Part shown: positions 1,604 through 37,753 of the stretch, one piece after another
How the letters are laid out: each line of letters starts with the position of its first letter
Position numbering within the stretch: the stretch's first letter is position 1
Source of the DNA: Akkermansia muciniphila
GTDB lineage: Bacteria > Verrucomicrobiota > Verrucomicrobiia > Limisphaerales > BJHT01
Reading direction: 5' to 3'
Length of the DNA stretch: 64,000 nucleotides
NCBI GenBank assembly: GCA_945861535.1
Contig: CAMAUZ010000030.1
Coordinates: 1-64,000 of the forward strand
The notes under the pieces: model-generated
Seen by the model: only the letters and a program-made list of their open reading frames with translations
What the model was told of the DNA's origin: nothing
Database searches by the model: none
Made by a program: the position numbers and the translations under genes

Positions 1604-1813
1604 ACAACGGCATTCCTCTCACCCTCAACCTCTCCCGCCAGGGGCGAGGGGACAGTGCACGGCGTCGCCGGAAAATGAGGGACGTCGGGTCGGAGCAGAA
1701 GGCTATCGACCCGGACACCAAGCCCTGAGCGCCCCCCCCGAAAGGATTTCCTTCACCGACCCGGAACGGATAGGAAGGGGGCGAAGATTGCGACCGAACC
1801 ATCCCTATCAGCC

Positions 1814-2551
1814 ATGCTCAAGTTCGAGGGAAAACACTGGCAAGAATCCGGCCCACCCGAAATGCAGGTGGTCCTCTGGCATTCTCCCGTCGCCGCGCCC
1901 CGCATCCGGTGGAGCATCGAGCTGCCGTTCGTCCCCGCCGGGGTGGACCTGGAGAATGACTGCGAGAAGCCGGTCCGCCACTTCACCGTGGATGTCGATG
2001 GCTACCTGCCCGGGCCGACGGACTGGCACGACCTCGAGGGCCGGGTCTTTGCGCCGGTGCCGGAGGATGTTTTCGCCGGCCCCGAGATCCGGGTCTCGTC
2101 GTATGGGCCGGGGGATGTCCTGTGGAGAGGCCCGGACACGACGGCCTGCCTGGTGTGCTTCCGGAAGCGCGACGGCTGGCGGTTCCAGGTCGAGCTGAGC
2201 GCGTGGTTCACCCGCGAGGCCTCCAAGCTCTGGCAGATGCGCCAGATGTGCCAGCAACTGGTCCCCGCCGGCGGCGGCGAGGAAGCGGAGGAGGAACTCC
2301 CCGAGGAGTGGACGCAAAGCCGCGACCTCTACTGGATTGGCGACGTGGTCTTCGCCCAGGTCAACTGCGCCGTTCCCATCAACTCACCGCGGCCACACGA
2401 CGTCGCCCGGCGGATGGTCAAAGCCGCGCTGAACCTCACCGAGTTCCGCAGCGTCCGCATCAACGGCGAGAGGCAGGGCACCCCGCCCCCGCCAGAGCTG
2501 GCGGTCGCCGACTATGGCCGGCTCATGGTCATTACCACGCCGCACTTCTGA
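1814..2551 (+). CDS. Hypothetical protein, 245 aa
   Basis: I do not recognise this family. The protein is soluble, with no signal peptide or membrane segment, rich in Trp and acidic residues. An acidic stretch (GGGEEAEEELPEEW) lies near residues 156-169. Codon use matches the GC-rich background, and the frame is clean from ATG at 1814 to TGA at 2551. After the stop the same frame stays open for about 70 codons and encodes D-x-K-I heptads (see the 21-bp array at 2630), so the protein may once have had a coiled-coil tail. Accessory surroundings suggest a non-core role. No function is proposed. Confidence 0.6.
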   Translation: MLKFEGKHWQESGPPEMQVVLWHSPVAAPRIRWSIELPFVPAGVDLENDCEKPVRHFTVDVDGYLPGPTDWHDLEGRVFAPVPEDVFAGPEIRVSSYGPGDVLWRGPDTTACLVCFRKRDGWRFQVELSAWFTREASKLWQMRQMCQQLVPAGGGEEAEEELPEEWTQSRDLYWIGDVVFAQVNCAVPINSPRPHDVARRMVKAALNLTEFRSVRINGERQGTPPPPELAVADYGRLMVITTPHF

Positions 2552-2629
2552 AACGGACCCGGCCTTGACCACCCAGGGCAGGCCGTTGTCCACGCGCACT
2601 GGCTGCCAGACCGCCAAACCGGGGACGAG

Positions 2630-2871
2630 GACGGTAAAATCAGGGACCCAGACCAGTCGGGAAACGAGCTAGACCATAAAATCAAGGAGCTGGACGGTAA
2701 AATTGGTGAGCTAGACCGATCGGAGCACGACCTCGACGACGTCCAGGTCATCCATTTTATGGTCTAGGTCATTCATTTTATGGTCTAGGTCATTCATTTT
2801 ATGGTCTAGGTCATCCATTTTGTGGTCTAGGGCATTTTGCGACCGGTCTAGGGCAGTTGTTGGGTGGTTTA
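2630..2871. repeat. Convergent array of 21-bp units
   Basis: Five 21-bp units run from 2630 to 2734 (consensus GACCATAAAATCAAGGAGCT). After an 11-base centre, six 21-bp units run from 2746 to 2871 in the opposite sense (consensus GGTCATTCATTTTATGGTCT). The core CTAGACCATAAAAT of the left side is the complement of ATTTTATGGTCTAG on the right. Units are 21 bp, so each half codes for heptads: D-x-K-I-x-E-L on the plus strand and LDHKMND on the minus strand. The units touch one another and lack spacers, so this is not CRISPR. The unusual AT content of the cores makes the array stand out from its surroundings. Confidence 0.85.
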
Positions 2872-3002
2872 GGTCGTGGAACGGGTGGATGGCTTTGGTA
2901 AAAGGCCAGCTCGCCTGCTTGACAGGATGGTCGGAATAGGGAATTCTCCGACCGTTCCCGCATCCGTAACCCATCATGTAAAACTCAACCCCAACATCAT
3001 CA

Positions 3003-3904
3003 TGCCCTCCATCGAAGCCATTATCCTCCGTGCGCAAGCCACCAGTGACACTCAGGCCGCCATTGCCGCCACCTGGGTTTGGGATGAAAAAACTTCGGCC
3101 GAGTGGGTCGCCGACTTGACGGCGATTGATACGAAGAAGATCGTTGTGTCGGATTTGGAGGGGGCGCAACTGCTGGCGCGCGCGGACTTCCAGAACACCA
3201 TCACCACGCTCCATGATCGCACCGTCGAGGGTCTCGGCATGGCGCGCGTGAAATGGCGCAAGGACGCCGCCAAGAAGGCCATTCTCTCCAACCTCAGCGC
3301 CTCGGGCGGCGGGCGCGAGACGGTGGAACGCGAGGCGCAGGCGTGGGAGAGCGTGTGGCAGAGTTTTGATGAGACCTGGCAACCCAGCGCGACCAACAAC
3401 ATCGCCGACTTCCGTATCCTGATCGCGAGCACGACGACGCTGGAAAAAGCCTACGGAAATGCGCACACGGTCTGGCGCAAGGGCGTCGAGGAGCTGCAGG
3501 CGGAAGCGGAGGCGCTCTGGGATGATTGCGTGGCGTGGTATGAGGCGGCCACGACGCTTTTCAAGGAAGGCACGGCCATCGGGGACTTGCTCCGCTCGAC
3601 CATCCCGACCAGCCCGCAGAGTCCGGAGCCGACCGCGCTGGAGATCGCCTCGGCCACGCCCGGCGCGGGCGGGTCCGTCACGGTGGGCTACGTGCCCGGC
3701 GGCGGCGCGCACGCGACCTCGGGGTTCCTGCAATGGCGGATCGTCGGCGTGGACGCGGATTTTGCCCACGACGTGCCGACCATCCCGGCCGGACAGACGG
3801 TCGTGACGGGCGGCACGGCGGGGCAGGTGGTTGAGTTCCGCACGTTCCTCGCCAACAGTGCTGGCACGGTGCTCAGCGCCGTGCAGTCGGCGACCTTGGT
3901 CTAA
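3003..3904 (+). CDS. Hypothetical protein with C-terminal fibronectin-like domain
   Basis: About 300 aa. The start is set at ATG 3003 (MPSIEAII), because upstream codons look non-coding. Residues 1-190 are alpha-helical, with many Trp and Glu residues and no signal peptide. After a Pro-rich linker (TSPQSPEPTA) the last 90 residues are Gly/Thr/Val-rich and alternate like a beta-sandwich of the fibronectin type III kind. A second damaged copy of the C-terminal domain lies 200 bp downstream (4110-4325), so the locus has been duplicated. Resembles uncharacterised proteins of environmental bacteria; function unknown. Confidence 0.7.
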
Positions 3905-4592: not shown

Positions 4593-6818
4593 CTAGAAGC
4601 GGTATTCCATGCCCAGCTTGAGATTCCGGCCCGGTTGGTTGTAGCCGCTGCCGTGCGTCCGGTAGTCCTCGTTGAGCAGATTCTCCAGCGCGGCGGTGAC
4701 GAAGTATTTCCCCTTCCAGTCGTAGCCGGTGCGGAAGTTCAACGTGGCCCAGCCGGGCGTGCCACCGGGCGGGATGCGTTGGGTGTCGCGCTGGTCGTCG
4801 GGTGAGAGGCGGTCCTGCTTCGCGGTCAGCAGGCCGAACACTTCGGCAAAGAACCCGGGGCGGCCGGCCTCCCAGCGCAGTCCGGCCAGACCGGTCAGCG
4901 GATGCATCCGGGTCATGGGTGCTCGCACGCTCGCGGTTGTGGAGGTGGGAAACGCATCGGCCTCGCCTTCCTGCCACGCGCCGCTGCCGAAGAGCGTGAG
5001 GCCGTCGCCGAGCCGGACGCGCGCGGAGAGTTCGACGCCGTGCAGCCAGCCCTGGCTGGCGTTGCGTTTGGTCACTTCCCGCGCGCCGCCGATGATCGCG
5101 CCGGTGGGGGTGCGCACGATGAGGTCGTCGATGAAGGTGTGATAATACGCCGCGCCCGCCTCCCAGTTTTGCTGGACGGTCTGCGCGCCGACCTCGCCCG
5201 TGAGGAATTTTTCCGGCTCGAGGTTGAGGGCGGCGGTTTCCAGTTCGCCGCTGCGGGCGATGTCAAAGCGCGTGAGGTCGCTCAGATTCGGCGCGCGGAA
5301 GCCCTGCGAGACGCCGGTGTACAGGCTCCACCGTTTGGCGGCATCGGGATGCCACAGCAGCCGGCCGCTGCCGACGAGGCTCGACCAGTCCTCCCGGAAC
5401 GAGGTCGCGGCCCCCGTGGCCGGGTCGCGCAGCCGCCCCGCGTCCGCCTGCGCCCAGGTGAAGCGCCCGCCCAGGGTGAAGCTCACCTGTTCCCCGAGCG
5501 GAATCTCATCCTGTGCGTACAGGCCGAACAGATCGTAATTCGCGTTGTCCGCCACCGGACCCTGGGTGGCCTGCGAGGTCTGCACGCCCAGCGCGTTGAA
5601 CTCGCGCTGCGAGGAATCCACGAAGTCGCGATAATGCTCCACGCCGTAAGTCCACCGGCCGAGCGGCGAGGGGCTGACGCCTTGCAGCGAGAGGCCCAGC
5701 GTGTCCACGTCCACGGTGTTGCGCTGCTGGGTGCGGTTGCCGCGCTCGACGAACTGCTGCTCGTCCTGCAGGTGCCATGAGGCGGTGGCCGTGAATTCAT
5801 CGCCGCGCTCCGTTTCGTGGGTTAGGCGCGCATAGGTGAGCTGCCGGGTCTGGTCAAAGAGGTGCTGCCGGTCGGTGCCACGCAGCAGCCCTTCCCAGGT
5901 CAGGCCGTAGCTGGTCCGGTGCGTGCGCTCCACGTCGTCCTGTTCGGTCCGCTGATAGGCGAACGTCAGCTTGGTGCGGGGGTTAAAAAAGTATTCGGCT
6001 TTGAAGTCGGCGTCCCATTGCTCGTAGCCGGTGTGCGGCTGGCGGCCCACGGCGTCGCCACCTTGCACGTCGCCGAAGGTCTTGGCCGTCAGCCCGAGCG
6101 CGAAGCCCCACTGCTCGCGCTCGGAAGCATTGATTTCACCGCGCCCCAAGTGCGCCCGCTCCGCCGAGCCGAACCGGTAGTAGGCCGCCCCGCCCCAGTT
6201 CGCGCCGTCGCTGGCGCGATAGCTGGGCGCCCGCAGCAGCGCGTTGACCGTACCGCCCACGGCGTCGCTGCCATACAGTACGGAGCTGGGGCCTTTGACG
6301 ACTTCGAGCCGGTCCGCCGCCAGTGCGTCCACGGTGCTCCAGTATTGGTTCGGGCCCTCCCGGAAGGTGGAGTTGTTAAGCCGGATGCCGTCCACCAGCG
6401 CCACGGTGCGGAAGCCGGTGAAGCCGCGCAGATACGGCGAACCCTGCCCGCGCGCCGTCTGCTGCACCAGCACGCCGGGCGTTTCCAGCAAGGCTTCCGG
6501 CACGCTCGCCGCCATCTGCTCGCGCCGCAGCGTCGGGCCGGCAATGGGCTTGGTGGCGAAGGGCAGATCAAGCTGCCGCTGCCCCCGCCGCGTGGCGGTG
6601 ACGATGACTTCGTCCAGGCGGGGGATCTCCTTGGTTGCCGCTACGGTCTCGCCGAACGCGTTGGTGAAAATGCTCTGTGCCCGGACGGACAGGGGATCCA
6701 GCGCCAGGCACAGCGTGCAGAAAACCCCCCTGGTGGATCGAGCTTTAGAAATTCGGGGTCGGTTCACGCGCGGAAAATTGCCGCCAGCGAACCCTGATTC
6801 AAGGAAATAGCTTCCCAA
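4593..6818 (-). CDS. TonB-dependent outer-membrane receptor
   Basis: 741 aa. It has a TonB box with following segment (LDEVIVTATRRGQ, residues 68-80), a plug domain (about 80-200) with PYLRGFTGFRTVALVDGIRL and VVKGPSSVLYGSDAVGGTVN, and a beta-barrel ending in the aromatic C-terminus GMEYRF. Family role: energy-dependent import of metal complexes or other scarce ligands across the outer membrane. The plug and barrel resemble haem/siderophore-type receptors, but the ligand cannot be read from the sequence. The N-terminus is odd: the first 28 residues look non-coding and the signal-like segment (29-48) is weak, so the start may be wrong or damaged. It is divergent from the 7117 gene, whose product may belong to the same uptake function. 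Confidence 0.85.
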   Translation of the reverse strand: MGSYFLESGFAGGNFPRVNRPRISKARSTRGVFCTLCLALDPLSVRAQSIFTNAFGETVAATKEIPRLDEVIVTATRRGQRQLDLPFATKPIAGPTLRREQMAASVPEALLETPGVLVQQTARGQGSPYLRGFTGFRTVALVDGIRLNNSTFREGPNQYWSTVDALAADRLEVVKGPSSVLYGSDAVGGTVNALLRAPSYRASDGANWGGAAYYRFGSAERAHLGRGEINASEREQWGFALGLTAKTFGDVQGGDAVGRQPHTGYEQWDADFKAEYFFNPRTKLTFAYQRTEQDDVERTHRTSYGLTWEGLLRGTDRQHLFDQTRQLTYARLTHETERGDEFTATASWHLQDEQQFVERGNRTQQRNTVDVDTLGLSLQGVSPSPLGRWTYGVEHYRDFVDSSQREFNALGVQTSQATQGPVADNANYDLFGLYAQDEIPLGEQVSFTLGGRFTWAQADAGRLRDPATGAATSFREDWSSLVGSGRLLWHPDAAKRWSLYTGVSQGFRAPNLSDLTRFDIARSGELETAALNLEPEKFLTGEVGAQTVQQNWEAGAAYYHTFIDDLIVRTPTGAIIGGAREVTKRNASQGWLHGVELSARVRLGDGLTLFGSGAWQEGEADAFPTSTTASVRAPMTRMHPLTGLAGLRWEAGRPGFFAEVFGLLTAKQDRLSPDDQRDTQRIPPGGTPGWATLNFRTGYDWKGKYFVTAALENLLNEDYRTHGSGYNQPGRNLKLGMEYRF

Positions 6819-15734: not shown

Positions 15735-17752
15735 TCACCGCCCCGCCTTCATCCGCCCGAGCCACTCGCGCACGTTTTGTTCGAGTACCTCGAGCGGCAC
15801 CGCGCCGGATTTCAGCAGGAGATCGTGGAAGTCGCGGAGGTCAAACTTCGCCCCCAGTTCCTTCGTCGCCGCCGCGCGCAGTTCCTTGATTTTCAGTTCG
15901 CCGATTTTGTAGGCGAGCGCCTGCCCGGGCCAGGAAATGTAGCGATCCACTTCGTTGGTGACGTCCAGTTCGCTCTTCGCCGCGTTGGCCAGGAAGTAGT
16001 CGATCGCCCGTTGCCGCTCCCATTTGAACGCGTGCATCCCCGTGTCCACGACGAGCCGGACTGCGCGCCACATCTCGTAGGTGAGCTGGCCGAACTTGGC
16101 ATACGGATCGTCGTAGAGGCCCATCTCGTCGCCGAGCGATTCGGCGTAGAGCGCCCAGCCCTCGATGTACGCCGTGTACGCGCCCTCGCCGCCGTAGCAC
16201 CGGAACTTCGGCAGCTCGCCCTGCTCGAACGCCAGCGCGAATTGCAGATGATGCCCCGGCACCGCCTCGTGCAGCGTCAGCGCCATCATCTCGTAGCGCG
16301 GCCGCATCTCGGGTTTGTAGAGGTTCACGAAGTAGGTGCCGGCGCGCGAGCCGTCGGCGGCGAGCACGCGATAGTAGGCCGCCGTCGTGTCCGGCGCGAT
16401 TTTGTCCGGGATCGGCTCGACGCCGTAGGGCACGCGCGGGAGCGCCTTGAAAAAGCGCACCAACTGCGGATCCACGCGCTTGGCCGTGGCGCGGTACTCG
16501 GTGAGCAGTTCGGCCGGCGTGCGGCAGTAGAACTTCGGATCACTGCGCAGGTGGTGGAAAAACTCCTGCCGCGTGCCCTTGAATCCGACCTGCGCCATCA
16601 CGCGCTGCATCTCGTCGCCGATACGTTTTACCTCGCGCAGGCCGAGGTCGTGAATCTCCTGCGGCGTGAGTTTCGTGGTCGTGAACTTGCGCGCGAGAAA
16701 CGCGTAGGTGTTCGTGCCGTCGGGCCATTGCCACGCCCCCACGCCGTCGAAGCACGCGGGGAAATACTCGTCGTCGAAAAACCGCTGCAACCGCCGATAC
16801 GCCGGGATCACCGAGTCGCTCACGGCGCGACGCGCGGCGGCGGCCAGGCGCTCGCGATCGGCGGACGCGACGGCTGCAGGAAACGTCGCGAACGGTTTGT
16901 AGAACGGGCTGTCCTCGGGCTTGCCCACGATCTGTTTGGCGATCTGCGCGGGCACGCGTTTCATCGTGATCTTCGTCTGCACGCGCCGCTCGCGAACGCC
17001 CTGCCGCAGCAGCGCAATGGTCTGGTCCATGAGCACGGGGAAGCGTCCGAGCCGGCCCAGCCAATCCTCGTAATCCTTCACGCTCTCGAAGCGCAGCGAG
17101 TCGGCGAGTTCGTCCGCTGTCTGGATGCCGCCGCGCTGCGAGATTGCGAGGAGGAAGGTGCGCTGGCGGTATTCCTCCAGCCCGAGTTTGGTCTGAAATT
17201 TGAACAGGGCGAAGTTCAGCCGGTCGCCTTCGGAAAGCTGCGCGCGGGGAATCGAGAGCAGGTGCTGAAGCGTCGCCTGCGTGCGCTGGTGCTCGCGCTC
17301 GGCGGTGGCGAGGCTCAAGTCGTCCCAGCGGTCGTTCCAGCGCCGGTCGCCGAGTTCCGAAGCCCACGTCGGGCTGCGCTCCATCGTGTGCTCCCAGTCC
17401 TCGGCGAAGAGGGCGTGGAGCTGTTGTGACGCGGCATTTGTCTCGGCGGCGGGCGCCCAAGCAGGCACGAGCATGGAAGTGATGGCGATGAACAAGGCGA
17501 ACGTGGAACGAAGAGCATTTGTTCCGAGGAAGGCCGGTGTGCGCCGCTGATGTGGGTCAGGCTTCCAGCCTGACGGTTCGGGCGGCATCCCTGCCGCCCG
17601 TTCCTTGCGGCGGCGTGGCGGATCGGCGGGACCGACAACACGGGGCAGGGATGCCCCGCGAACCGGCAGGCAAGGATGCCTGCCCCACATCAACGGCGCT
17701 TCTAAATCGAGACGGTAGCCTGTGCTACCCCTTTGCGTTTCGGCGTTCGTTT

Positions 17753-32844: not shown

Positions 32845-34281
32845 ATGACCACCATCCCCCATCTCCCCGCCCTCCGCCTTGGCCGCAACTATGAGTCGCT
32901 CGACAAGGTCGAGGTGAAAGACCACCGCACCGGCGAGGTCAAGGCGCTCGTGTCGCAGGTCAATGGCGGCATCGTGAAACGCGACATGGCCAAGCTCGGC
33001 CAGGCGCGGGCGGCGTTGAAGAAATTCACCGTGAACCAGTTGATCGACCTGAGCGCGAAGGCGGGCGACTTGTTTCTCAACGGCACGCTGCCCTTCGGCG
33101 ACCAGGGCCACACGCAGTCCACGCAGCAGTACATCGAGACGCTCAGCGGCACCTCGGGCCTGCCGCACATCATGGTGAAGCGCAACATGGCGAAGATTCA
33201 CTACGCGCTCACGCATTTGTCCGAGGTGCTGAACGGCCTGTCGCGCGGGCTGGACATGGGGATCATCGACCGCGGGTTCGGCGAGCAGTTCGGGACGAAG
33301 CTGAGCTTCTTCCCGACGTGCCAGGCGCTCGGCTTGGTGATGCCGAGCAATTCGCCGGCGGTGAATTCGCTGTGGCTCCCAGCCATCGCGCTCAAGACGC
33401 CGGTGGTCATCAAGCCCGGCAAAGAGGAGCCGTGGACGCCGTATCGGCTGATCCAGGCCTTCATCGCGGCGGGCGTGCCGGCGGAGGCCTTCGGGTTTTA
33501 TCCGACCGATCACGACGGCGCGGCGACGATCCTCAATTCCTGCGGGCGCGCGCTGATCTTCGGCGACAAGAACACGATGGCGCAGTACGCGAACAACCCG
33601 GCCATCCAGCTTCATGGCCCCGGCTGGAGCAAGTTCGTCATCGGCGACGATTGCATTGAGAACTGGCGCGACTACCTCGACGTCATCGCCGGCGCGATCA
33701 GCGACAATGGCGGGCGCTCGTGCATCAACGCCTCGGCGGTCGTGGTGCCGAAGTATGCGGCGGAAATCGCCGACGCGCTGGCGCAGAAACTCGGGCCGGT
33801 CGCGCCGACGCGGCCGGACGACGAGAACGCCCGGCTCTCCGGCTTCGCGAATGTGAAGATGGCGGACTTCATCGACGCGCAAATCGAGGAAGGGCTGAAA
33901 ACGCCGGGCGCGACGGACGCGACGGCCAAGTATCGCAACGGCCCGCGCAAGGTGGTGTTCGAGGGTGGCACCTACATGCGGCCGACCATCGTGCTGTGCG
34001 ACAGCTTCGCGCATCCGCTGGCGAACAAGGAGTTCCTCTGTCCCTACGCCAGCGTGGTGACGTGTCCGCAGAATGAGATGCTGCAAAAGATCGGCTACAC
34101 GCTGGCGTGCTCGGCGATCACCAAGGCCCCAGCGTTCATCGAGCAACTCGAGGCGTTCCCGGAAATCGACCGGCTGAACATCGGCCCGGTGTCCACGATG
34201 AAGATTTCGTGGGACCAGCCGCACGAAGGCAACATGTTCGAGTTCCTCTGGAAGCGCCGCAGCATCGAGCGCGCGTGGTAA
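32845..34281 (+). CDS. Aldehyde dehydrogenase family protein
   Basis: 478 aa. Rossmann region LGLVMPSNSPAVNSLWLPAI and VVIKPGKEEPWTPYRL (about 161-202). The catalytic Cys293 is in NGGRSCINASAVVVP. C-terminal motifs include ALANKEFLCPYASVV-like sequence and IGPVSTMKISWDQPHEGNMFEFLW. The usual general-base Glu (E-L-G-G) is not obvious near residues 255-262 (LHGPGWSK), as in acylating (CoA- or acyl-accepting) aldehyde dehydrogenases. That fits a role next to the PaaK-like acyl-activating gene and the Fe-alcohol dehydrogenase, interconverting acyl donor and aldehyde. Direction and substrate are inference. Confidence 0.85.
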   Translation: MTTIPHLPALRLGRNYESLDKVEVKDHRTGEVKALVSQVNGGIVKRDMAKLGQARAALKKFTVNQLIDLSAKAGDLFLNGTLPFGDQGHTQSTQQYIETLSGTSGLPHIMVKRNMAKIHYALTHLSEVLNGLSRGLDMGIIDRGFGEQFGTKLSFFPTCQALGLVMPSNSPAVNSLWLPAIALKTPVVIKPGKEEPWTPYRLIQAFIAAGVPAEAFGFYPTDHDGAATILNSCGRALIFGDKNTMAQYANNPAIQLHGPGWSKFVIGDDCIENWRDYLDVIAGAISDNGGRSCINASAVVVPKYAAEIADALAQKLGPVAPTRPDDENARLSGFANVKMADFIDAQIEEGLKTPGATDATAKYRNGPRKVVFEGGTYMRPTIVLCDSFAHPLANKEFLCPYASVVTCPQNEMLQKIGYTLACSAITKAPAFIEQLEAFPEIDRLNIGPVSTMKISWDQPHEGNMFEFLWKRRSIERAW

Positions 34282-34331
34282 ACCTCTGAAGTTCCTGAAC
34301 CGCTTCGGCATTAACTCCGTCCATACGCGCC

Positions 34332-35555
34332 ATGTCCGACGCCCCCGTTCATTACGAAAAGCTGCCGCTGGTGGCTTTCGACAGCCAGACGCGCACCCGC
34401 CTCGTGTTTGGCAATAACACCGTCGAGCGCGTGGGCGCGCTGGCGCGGGAGCTGGGCGGCACGCGCGTGCTGGTGGTGACGGACAAGGGGATCGCGCTGG
34501 CGGGGCACGCCGGGCGCGTCGAGCATTCGCTGCAAAAGGCCGGCCTGGGCGTGGTCCTGTTCGACGCGGTGCGGGAGAATCCGACGACGCTGGATGTGGA
34601 CCGCTGCCTTGCAGTCGCGCGCGAGGCGGGCGCGGATTTGATCGTGGGCGTCGGCGGCGGCAGCTCGATGGACACGGCCAAGGGCGCAAATTTTCTCCTG
34701 ACCAATGGCGGCCGGATGCAGGACTACTGGGGCGTCGGCAAGGCGACGAAGCCGATGCTGCCGTTGATCGCCATCCCGACCACGACGGGCACGGGCAGCG
34801 AGTGCCAGTCGTTCGCGCTGATCGCGGATGAAAAGACGCATCAGAAGATGGCGTGCGGCGATCCCAAGGCGGCGGCGCGCGTGGCGATTCTGGACCCGAC
34901 GCTCACGGTCTCGCAGCCGCCGCGCGTGACGGCCTGCACGGGCATCGACGCCATCACGCACGCGGTCGAGACGACGGTGACGCGGAAACGGAACGCGATT
35001 TCGGTGATGTATTCGCACGAGGCCTTCAAGCTGCTGGTGCCCGCGCTGCCGCTGGCCTTGCGCGAGCCGCTGGACCTCGATGCCCGCGGGCGGATGCTGC
35101 TGGGCGCGGCGCTGGCGGGCATGGCGATTGAGAACTCGATGCTCGGCGCGGCGCACTCGGCGGCCAATCCGCTGACGGCGCACTGCGGCATCGTGCATGG
35201 GCAGGCGGTCGGGATCATGCTGCCGGCGGTGGTGCGGTTCAACGCGCGGGACGGCTTCGCGCGACGGGCCTACGCGGAGCTGGCGTCGGCGGGCGAGCTG
35301 GCGCATGTGCGCGACGGTTTGGACGAGGCGGTGGGGGCGCTGCTGGCGCGGTTGGAATCGCTTCTGAACGTGGCGCAAATGCCGCGCTCGCTGGCGGACT
35401 GCGGCGTGAAGCCGGCCTTGGTGGAGACCCTCGCGACGGAAGCGGCGAAACAGTGGACCGCGACGTTCAATCCGCGCGCGGTGGCGGTGGAGGATTTTGT
35501 GAATCTTTACCAGCAGGCTTTCGAGCGGCGGGGTGATGGGGATGGTGAGACCTGA
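34332..35555 (+). CDS. Iron-containing alcohol dehydrogenase
   Basis: 407 aa. Family III dehydrogenase: VGVGGGSSMDTAKGANFLL (NAD(P)-binding), PLIAIPTTTGTGSECQSFA, and the metal-ligand region GIDAITHAVETTV with NSMLGAAHSAANPLTAHCGI and VHGQAVGIML, which supplies the Asp and three His ligands. Reduces aldehydes to alcohols or the reverse with NAD(P)H. Lies 50 bp after the aldehyde dehydrogenase gene and is likely co-transcribed. A GTTAGGC box 8 bp after its stop marks the left edge of the cassette-like region described at 35854. Confidence 0.9.
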   Translation: MSDAPVHYEKLPLVAFDSQTRTRLVFGNNTVERVGALARELGGTRVLVVTDKGIALAGHAGRVEHSLQKAGLGVVLFDAVRENPTTLDVDRCLAVAREAGADLIVGVGGGSSMDTAKGANFLLTNGGRMQDYWGVGKATKPMLPLIAIPTTTGTGSECQSFALIADEKTHQKMACGDPKAAARVAILDPTLTVSQPPRVTACTGIDAITHAVETTVTRKRNAISVMYSHEAFKLLVPALPLALREPLDLDARGRMLLGAALAGMAIENSMLGAAHSAANPLTAHCGIVHGQAVGIMLPAVVRFNARDGFARRAYAELASAGELAHVRDGLDEAVGALLARLESLLNVAQMPRSLADCGVKPALVETLATEAAKQWTATFNPRAVAVEDFVNLYQQAFERRGDGDGET

Positions 35556-35580
35556 GTGGGATGTTAGGCGTCTTACGCGT

Positions 35581-35859
35581 ATGGGTTCATGGATACCATG
35601 TCTTTGCGGCAGCCTCGTTCACGCCAACCTTTATTGTGGCGCTGGCGTGTTTCGCCTCATTCGTGACGACGAGTGGGACGCCGTTGCCAACACGGATGCG
35701 ACACCCGAGCGTGAGGATTACTCCAGATTATTTCGCGATAGTCGGGAGGTGTTCCGCTGTTCCAATTGTTCCCGACTCATCGTTTATTGGGATCGCCAAG
35801 GAGGACTACCGACATATTATCGAGTGGAGACACCACCAAATGAAAAGCCAGACGCCTAA
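35581..35859 (+). CDS. Cys-rich small protein in a cassette-like unit
   Basis: 92 aa from ATG 35581 (MGSWIPCLCGSLVHANLYCG). Two CxC/CxxC pairs (PCLCG and RCSNCSRLIVYWD) suggest a small zinc ribbon. Similar short proteins occur as orphan genes in many soil bacteria; function unknown. The stop TAA (35857-35859) lies inside the GCCTAAC box of an attC-like site, as is usual for integron cassette genes. The segment is lower in GC than the neighbouring dehydrogenase. Confidence 0.65.
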   Translation: MGSWIPCLCGSLVHANLYCGAGVFRLIRDDEWDAVANTDATPEREDYSRLFRDSREVFRCSNCSRLIVYWDRQGGLPTYYRVETPPNEKPDA

Positions 35860-35943
35860 CCATGCACTCCTAACCCGGCGGGAGCGTCGAGGTTGCAATC
35901 GTGGCGTCCCGTGCGCCGGGTCGCTGAGCTTGGGTCGTTAGGT
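35854..35943 (+). other. attC-like recombination site 1 (integron cassette)
   Basis: Begins with GCCTAAC (fits RYYYAAC), ends with GTTAGGT (fits GTTRRRY), 90 bp in all. The inner arms ACCCGGCG (35873-35880) and CGCCGGGT (35914-35921) are exactly complementary, so the bottom strand can fold into the hairpin that IntI-type integrases use. The outer boxes also pair. The spacing of the inner arms from the ends (12 and 15 bases) is longer than in classical sites, so the match is good but not perfect. Confidence 0.65.
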
Positions 35944-35958
35944 GACTCGCGCCACACT

Positions 35959-36585
35959 ATGCGACTGATTCTCGTAAATAGAGGAAGGGAGTTCAGCGAT
36001 GTCCTTCGCTGGCAGTTCCGCTCGCATCCAGAGGTTCAGGTTGTCTGTGGCCGATTCGAGGATTTGCCATCGTTTGATTGTGTCGTCACCGCAGGCAATT
36101 CATTCGGGTTGATGGATGCAGGCATGGACTTGGCGGTCGTTCGTTTCTTCGGACTTCATGTCATGGAGCGCGTCCAAGGACAAATTCTCGAGGATCATTT
36201 GGGAGAGCAACCGGTCGGCACGTGCATCATTGTTCCAACCGGCCACGCCGCGCATCCGTTCGTCGCACACGCGCCTACGATGCGTGTTCCCATGAACATC
36301 CAAGGCACAGACCACGTATATCTCGCCATGTGGGCTTCCCTTACTGCCGTCCATCGTCACAACCGTTCCGCATCACGAAAGATAGATTCTTTGGCTTGTC
36401 CGGGGCTCGGCACTGGCACAGGCGGCATGGATTTTCTTGAGGCAGCTCTCCAGTTGTGTGTGGCTTACGAGCACTATCAGCGACCACCGCAATTCATCAA
36501 TCCTTCGGTCGCACAGCAACGTCATGACAGAGTATATTACGGCGGCCGTTGGGGTTTTACGCACCCACGAACACCCGTCATCTAA
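35959..36585 (+). CDS. Macro-domain protein in a cassette-like unit
   Basis: 208 aa from ATG 35959, 15 bp after the preceding attC-like site. ADP-ribose-binding macro fold: FDCVVTAGNSFGLMDAGMDL (the usual N-A-A-N / G-G-G-V region, with A-G-N-S kept), CIIVPTGHA and LACPGLGTGTGGMDF (the G-I/L-G-T-G loop). Could remove or read ADP-ribose marks, or bind NAD-derived signals. No ART or DarT partner is adjacent. Stop TAA (36583-36585) lies inside the ATCTAAC box of the second attC-like site. Base composition is lower in GC than the core genes. Confidence 0.75.
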   Translation: MRLILVNRGREFSDVLRWQFRSHPEVQVVCGRFEDLPSFDCVVTAGNSFGLMDAGMDLAVVRFFGLHVMERVQGQILEDHLGEQPVGTCIIVPTGHAAHPFVAHAPTMRVPMNIQGTDHVYLAMWASLTAVHRHNRSASRKIDSLACPGLGTGTGGMDFLEAALQLCVAYEHYQRPPQFINPSVAQQRHDRVYYGGRWGFTHPRTPVI

Positions 36586-36637
36586 CAACCAAGATTTGCG
36601 TTACAAGTCGGCGCTTGTTCAGCGCTCTGCGTTAGCC
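36580..36637 (+). other. attC-like recombination site 2
   Basis: ATCTAAC (fits RYYYAAC) to GTTAGCC (one mismatch to GTTRRRY), 58 bp. CTAAC and GTTAG pair as outer boxes, and GCGCTTGTTCAGCGC gives an inner hairpin. The mismatch in the last box would be expected if the bases after the G are host sequence at a secondary insertion site. No integrase gene is in the window. Confidence 0.55.
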
Positions 36638-36703
36638 GCCGGTTCTGGACCGCACGATGGAACAGTCGTTGGCATAGCGGGCAGTGCGGTCGTCAGATGT
36701 TTT

Positions 36704-37753
36704 ATGAAAACAATATTGGCTCAGTTCAGCACTTGGAGCGTGATGCTCGTGGGTGTCTTACCTTCGTGCCTAAGTTGGGACTACGAAGGCCATCGGCTGG
36801 TGAATCAGGCGGCGGTGAGTCTGTTGCCGACTAACTTCCCCGGCTTTGTGCAGAGCGCGGAGGCGCGGGAGCGCATCGCGTTTCTCGCTGGCGAACCGGA
36901 TCGCTGGCGGAACACGCCGGACCTGCCGCTGCGCCATTGCAACGGGCCGGACCATTACTTCGATGTCGATGATCTGGTGCTCTACAAGTTGGAGCCGACG
37001 GCGCTAAGTCACTTCCGGTATGAGTTCGCCGGACAGCTCGCGGTGGCGCGGGCGACCAAGCCCGAGCAGTTTCCGACGATTGATCCGACCCAGGACCGGG
37101 ACCGCACGAAGACCCAGATAGGTTTCCTGCCGTGGGCGATCACGGAACACTACTCGAAGCTAAAGTCAGGCTTTTCCTATCTGAAAGCCTACGAACAGGC
37201 CGGCACGCCGGAAGAGATCGCCAATGCCCGGCAGAACATTCTCTATGTCATGGGCGTGATGGGTCATTACGTGGGCGACCTAACCCAACCCTTGCACACG
37301 ACCAAGAACTACAACGGCTGGGTGGGTGAGAACCCCGCCGGCTACACGACGAGCAAAGGGTTTCACGCCTGGATCGACGGTGGCTTCCTCCAAAAATCCG
37401 GCATGGTGACACTGCCCGAGCTACGCCCGAAGCTACGCCCGGCGCGGAGTCTCTGGCATGGTCAACCAGTGGAGAAACGACCGGATGTCTTCCCGGAAGT
37501 GATGACGATGCTGCTGCAGCAGTTCAAGCTGGTGGAGCCACTCTACCTGATGGACAAGGAAGGCAAGCTGTCAGCCAAGGATGAAACGGGACGGGTGGGT
37601 AGAGAATTCCTGACCGGACAACTAGCGGCCGCCGCGCAGATGTTGAGCGATCTGTGGTTCACCGCGTGGGACCAGTCATTGCCCGACACCTATCTCCTAG
37701 GCCATCTGGCGAAGCGAAAACTGGCGACCCCGGTAGCGCCGAAGCAGCCGTGA
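36704..37753 (+). CDS. S1/P1-type nuclease / zinc phospholipase C family protein
   Basis: 349 aa from ATG 36704. A signal peptide ends near SCLS, leaving Trp25 of SWDYEGHRLVNQAA as the mature N-terminus; this is characteristic of the family, since that Trp supplies zinc ligands. Further ligands: His in LPLRHCNGPDHYFDVDD and GHYVGDLTQPLHTTKNYNGW. Three zinc ions would hydrolyse phosphodiester bonds in single-stranded nucleic acid or phospholipid. Secreted or periplasmic. It follows the cassette array directly, with no attC after it. Confidence 0.85.
   Translation: MKTILAQFSTWSVMLVGVLPSCLSWDYEGHRLVNQAAVSLLPTNFPGFVQSAEARERIAFLAGEPDRWRNTPDLPLRHCNGPDHYFDVDDLVLYKLEPTALSHFRYEFAGQLAVARATKPEQFPTIDPTQDRDRTKTQIGFLPWAITEHYSKLKSGFSYLKAYEQAGTPEEIANARQNILYVMGVMGHYVGDLTQPLHTTKNYNGWVGENPAGYTTSKGFHAWIDGGFLQKSGMVTLPELRPKLRPARSLWHGQPVEKRPDVFPEVMTMLLQQFKLVEPLYLMDKEGKLSAKDETGRVGREFLTGQLAAAAQMLSDLWFTAWDQSLPDTYLLGHLAKRKLATPVAPKQP

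Follow-up and report, generated by a model that had tools for sequence, protein, structure and literature searches.

A probable two-cassette attC array without an adjacent integrase behind an alcohol dehydrogenase gene, with different content at the same site in a sister species

Integrons have already been recorded from Verrucomicrobiota, and one proposed origin of CALIN, arrays of attC-ended cassettes with no adjacent integrase, is off-target insertion by IntI elsewhere (PMC8618304); for such arrays IntegronFinder 2 requires at least two attC sites (PMC9024848). Insertion at genomic attG sites is attributed to Loot et al. 2024 in two papers (PMC12901181, PMC11641012), and the occurrence of aadB at a secondary site of RSF1010 is cited in a third (PMC10127599). 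Laboratory experiments have demonstrated off-target insertion, and stray attC sites have been read as traces of it. The type of event that we describe here is already known, and the more interesting point is a possible repeated use of the same dispersed sites. A genus in which one species has an intact integron and the other integrase fragments, and in which at least two loci hold different cargo at the same site, allows one to ask whether cassettes that have strayed can still be exchanged or have reached a dead end; in the present case, a macro-domain gene of phage type has been brought in behind a host operon by a cassette.

The locus lies in a window of 64 kb, the whole stretch of DNA analysed, at the start of contig CAMAUZ010000030.1 of the genome under study (G000), and was compared with a congener (G001), the sole sister species in the comparison; the assemblies of both are fragmented. 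A left core box, GTTAGGC, stands 7 bases past the stop codon of the Fe-dependent alcohol dehydrogenase (Fe-ADH) gene, and the rest of the 64 kb contains one further GTTAGGC/GCCTAAC, at 5821. Two ORFs follow, each with its TAA stop codon within an RYYYAAC box (GCCTAAC for ORF1, ATCTAAC for ORF2); in the sequence, both stops and all five boxes are where the initial annotation had placed them (Table 1). A stop codon within such a box was found in 5 of the 150 long ORFs of the loci checked, three of these five being cassette ORFs, and with cassette ORFs set aside the background is 2 in 147 (~1.4%). The G+C fraction of the cassettes is 0.55-0.57, against 0.69 for the Fe-ADH gene. As the cassettes are co-directional with the operon, begin 7 bp past its last stop codon and have no terminator-like site that we could find in 34200-36800, they would probably be read through from the operon promoter.

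Table 1 Coordinates of the features at the window locus (contig CAMAUZ010000030.1) and of the second repeated hairpin elsewhere.
Feature	Position	Strand	Basis
Fe-dependent alcohol dehydrogenase gene, last host-operon gene upstream of the insertion	34332..35555	+	PF00465 6.9e-52; 95% identical DNA in G001:C410
Left core box GTTAGGC	35563..35569	+	Sequence; congener homology ends 7 bp after box
Cassette 1, 374 bp	35564..35937	+	Box to box; missing from congener locus and genome
Cassette 1 ORF (ORF1), 92 aa, Cys-rich (CLCG...CSNC), zinc-ribbon-like	35581..35859	+	Zn_ribbon_9 0.0058, below cut-off
attC1	35854..35943	+	R'' GCCTAAC 35854-35860; inner arms 35873-35880, 35914-35921; R' GTTAGGT 35937-35943
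Cassette 2, 694 bp	35938..36631	+	Box to box; missing from congener
Cassette 2 ORF (ORF2), 208 aa, macro-domain protein	35959..36585	+	PF01661 5.7e-11; phrog_2613 6.3e-59
attC2, weak	36580..36637	+	R'' ATCTAAC 36580-36586; R' GTTAGCC 36631-36637
Host gene downstream of the insertion, weakly S1/P1-nuclease-like	36704..37753	+	PF02265 below cut-off; protein 94% identical in congener
Hairpin GCCTAACAACAAAAGTTAGCATCGGGCGCAGCCCCGATGCTAAC..., this genome	G000:C17:101063-101141, C33:19190, C129:1631-1707
Hairpin GCCTAACAACAAAAGTTAGCATCGGGCGCAGCCCCGATGCTAAC..., congener	G001:C543:3011-3090 (L136), C118 (L138), C97:7429-7506 (L137)

The first unit is firmly supported as a cassette. It shows the arrangement R''(RYYYAAC)...R'(GTTRRRY) with the stop codon at R'' and complementary arms, and the inner arms of attC1 are, as had been claimed, exactly complementary (ACCCGGCG and CGCCGGGT). 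A BLAST search of the region against its own genome returned 13 further places, 71-92% identical, all of which matched at attC1. We built a covariance model from 11 attC1-type sites, the window's site included; with this model, of which it is itself a member, attC1 scored 84 bits, and 22 copies of the family were detected in this genome and 17 in the congener. A leave-one-out profile recovered attC1 at E = 3.8e-17, as the sole significant match in 64 kb. In other genera of the order, sites of the same family (R1) lie directly beside full-length integron integrases (G077, with covariance-model scores of 108 and 106 bits; G018, with 97 bits; and G128, with about 12 sites), and such sites also accompany the integrase of the congener; the repeat family is therefore attC and not another repeat. 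In the alignment, attC1 is without the outer L'' arm that its relatives have; attC1 and attC2, each taken alone, folded no better than shuffles, and an Rfam scan found nothing. A hand-made test of class 1 attC geometry recognised known plasmid attCs and failed on both attC1 and attC2, and thus cannot decide for this clade.

The second attC site proposed by the initial annotation is plausible: its boxes, the stop codon within R'' and the boundary speak for it, and its want of family relatives and its L-box geometry (p = 0.19 against shuffles, in a test tuned to class 1 attCs) speak against it. Of the features listed for cassette 1, cassette 2 has the boxes, with one mismatch in R' GTTAGCC, a box that is probably mostly host sequence. 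No relatives of attC2 were found by profile in the loci compared or by distant BLAST in plasmids, and the site would probably not pass a strict attC model. We also considered as its kin a second hairpin family described below, whose first 19 bases look related, but not significantly. The best support for attC2 is comparative, in that homology with the congener resumes 8 bp beyond GTTAGCC. One might instead take only the first unit for a cassette, with the macro-domain gene regarded as a plain accessory gene and attC2 as a chance match. Such a reading would suit the lack of attC2 relatives and the weak geometry, and also the macro homologues elsewhere, most of which lie outside cassettes with no R1 attC nearby. 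We nevertheless consider it unlikely: an R'' box would fall over the ORF2 stop codon by chance at the background rate given above, the macro gene is missing from the congener, whose homology returns just past the box, and at another locus (L088) a GTTAGGC stands about 20 bp ahead of a macro gene.

For the cassette 1 protein, 146 genomes of the order yielded two remote homologues. The cassette 2 protein matches PF01661 at 42.8 bits, against a cut-off of 22, and its predicted structure (pLDDT 81) has its best PDB match in 1njr, the yeast ADP-ribose-1''-monophosphatase, with DarG macrodomains matching more weakly. Conservation extends to G46-N47-S48 and to the G151-G156 glycine loop, with the exception of one residue. 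Judging from this model, the protein probably binds or removes ADP-ribose, and it may be an ADP-ribosyl hydrolase. Homologues occur in 18 other genomes, mostly of Verrucomicrobiota, and the phage relatives include Gifsy-1 and SEN4/SEN5. A literature search found no paper that pairs 'integron cassette' with 'macro domain'.

Comparison with the congener places the array between host genes that the two species have in common. At G001:C410 the flanks are 95% identical in DNA on the Fe-ADH side and 93% on the S1/P1-nuclease-like side, and about 0.5 kb of unrelated sequence is inserted between them, containing a single ORF (143 aa) of no assigned function. Searches of the congener found neither of the two cargo genes. 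The homology with the congener includes the left box, which reads GTTAGGC in this genome and GGTAGGC in the other, and ends at 35576, 7 bp beyond the box; it resumes at 36645, 8 bp after the right box. Both cassette ends are thereby placed, and a GTTRRRY would fall within 13 bp of a homology break by chance with a probability of 0.006. With flanks 93-95% identical and homology breaks at the boxes, the view that this is an insertion outside the main integron, immediately behind the Fe-ADH gene, is supported. The clean empty site that had been expected in relatives was found in no genome examined: the sole other member of the genus has another insert at the same place, although the insert boundaries fit a cassette array. 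That congener insert is a probable cassette; its left box is decayed, about 60 bp separate its last GTTAGGC from the common flank, and no R1 attC was found in it. More distant genomes of the order were considered as empty-site controls, but the genes after Fe-ADH differ in the two checked, which makes them unusable.

No match to TIGR02249 or PF00589 was found on the window's contig, and the Fe-ADH gene ends 7 bp before the first box, so that the locus itself has no integrase, as originally described. The term 'integrase-less' holds for the local array and not for the genome, which contains integron-integrase remnants, or for the congener, which has an intact gene. The suggested genome-wide search for attC and intI yielded the 22 attCs above and intI as fragments only; no intact integron integrase was found in this assembly (96.6% complete, 169 contigs), a lack that can be an assembly gap. 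On contig C121, N- and C-terminal integrase pieces lie beside an attC array, split by repeat-like sequence, and further integrase pieces occur on C24 and C144. In detail, some 250 bp of repeat-like, G+C-rich sequence stand in place of the middle of the C121 integrase (L019, 18242-18977), whose N-terminal and C-terminal pieces are 30% and 72% identical, respectively, to the congener IntI. The congener integrase is an intact 321-aa protein on G001:C327 (TIGR02249 273.6 bits, over the cut-off), with two R1 attCs on the same contig. The remnants on C121, C24 and C144 indicate that decay does happen, and the array could accordingly be what is left of a complete integron after deletion of its integrase and attI, a CALIN by integrase loss that involved no off-target insertion; the inserts at the same position in both species would fit such a history too. 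We regard it as quite improbable, given that no intI remnant lies beside the array, that in both species 7 bp separate the end of the Fe-ADH gene from the left box, and that at least 10 other dispersed attC loci would each need the same history.

Each species has about 20 attCs spread over many contigs, and in this genome they occur on at least 10 contigs, where one or two cassettes often follow a host gene (C85, C33, C17 and C4). Their cargo includes DUF4240 and, weakly, SMI1/KNR4-like proteins, and the right-hand R' is often degenerate (GTTCGCC, GTCGGGC, GCTCGCC), as expected if it is host DNA. At C33, the host DNA is 95% identical to G001:C263 up to a GTTAGGC present in both species, after which the cassettes differ, and a related 39-bp hairpin is kept near the right end in both. 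C33 and the window locus together suggest that these are old landing sites and that their content has turned over. When the flanks of nine congener sites were searched in this genome, the matches were mostly dispersed repeats. It is conceivable that no integrase movement takes place now and that the two species differ by differential loss from a longer ancestral array, through deletion or homologous recombination. The left box and the C33 hairpin common to both species are compatible with this, and homologous attCs could recombine by RecA. At both loci, however, homology breaks right after the core box, as integrase crossovers give, and the congener integrase is intact; we find differential loss rather unlikely, and the agent of cassette turnover may have been an integrase or deletion with homologous recombination.

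Several further observations concern attC sites of the genus. C4 was considered as an empty site and set aside: the congener is without the cassette but has another insert nearby. There, an unrelated insert in L189 (G001:C481) replaces the cassette of L026 (G000:C4, left box L026:7978), with different boundaries, and by reading it resembles a PIN/VapC-type gene pair. An orthologous decayed attC is present in both species (L146, G000:C111:710-801; L139, G001:C283:8484-8572), with a downstream flank 95% identical; judged by its sequence, it is an older insertion that would predate the split of the two. The second repeated hairpin (GCCTAACAACAAAAGTTAGCATCGGGCGCAGCCCCGATGCTAAC...) was matched 7 times in this genome and 6 times in the congener, in most cases immediately behind a cassette ORF, and in G001:C97 it sits within an attC, with R'' on its left and the native right half of the attC on its right. 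The hairpin may represent another type of attC or a small element that targets attC sites. Finally, IS110-family elements (PF02371) interrupt attCs in L019 (G000:C121, about 15860-17700) and L134 (G001:C327, about 1630-3590); those of the two species are 91% identical, and the element is an attC-targeting IS in this genus.

For the window locus, the explanation that we hold to be probable is a two-cassette CALIN that arose from off-target (attG-type) insertion, followed by cassette exchange. In trans, IntI would have joined the folded single strand of an attC to a genomic site that contains GTT and lies between the genes for Fe-ADH and the S1/P1-nuclease-like protein, with recombination expected between G35563 and T35564. 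Insertion would leave the left end marked by GTTAGGC and the right end by a GTTAGCC that derives in part from the host, and the predicted joined empty site would read GTGGGATG followed, across the junction, by TTAGCC. The cassettes probably came from the chromosomal integron of the genus itself, which is intact in the congener and represented here by integrase fragments, and later gain, loss or exchange through attC recombination would have led to the different cargo in the two sister species. A broader picture, in which the integrase re-uses many satellite docking sites in trans and the whole genome serves as a cassette platform, with cassettes under host operon promoters, is a possible but doubtful extension.

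Set against known systems, the locus agrees with CALIN in the missing adjacent integrase and resembles it in its cassettes, of which the first ends in a firm attC and the second in a plausible one, given by its boxes and boundary; here, the sister-species comparison adds base-level boundaries and different content at one site. The sedentary chromosomal integron on G001:C327 has the same attC family and the same GTTAGGC cassette starts, but it also has intI, from which its cassettes run away, whereas beside the array at the window locus there is no intI and no recognisable attI. Phage macro-domain proteins (PHROG 2613), found near tail fibre genes in Gifsy-1 and in the Salmonella phages SEN4 and SEN5, are kin of the cassette 2 protein (41% identity over 93% of its length), but the window's gene is carried as an integron cassette and no phage genes were seen around it. 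With insertion at attG and other secondary sites, the locus has in common a GTT site other than attI that holds a single cassette or a short array, and a right R' that is probably mostly host sequence; its boundaries coincide with boxes, and the congener site is filled by another insert. What differs here is that at least 10 such loci occur in one genome, two of them common to sister species with different cassettes.
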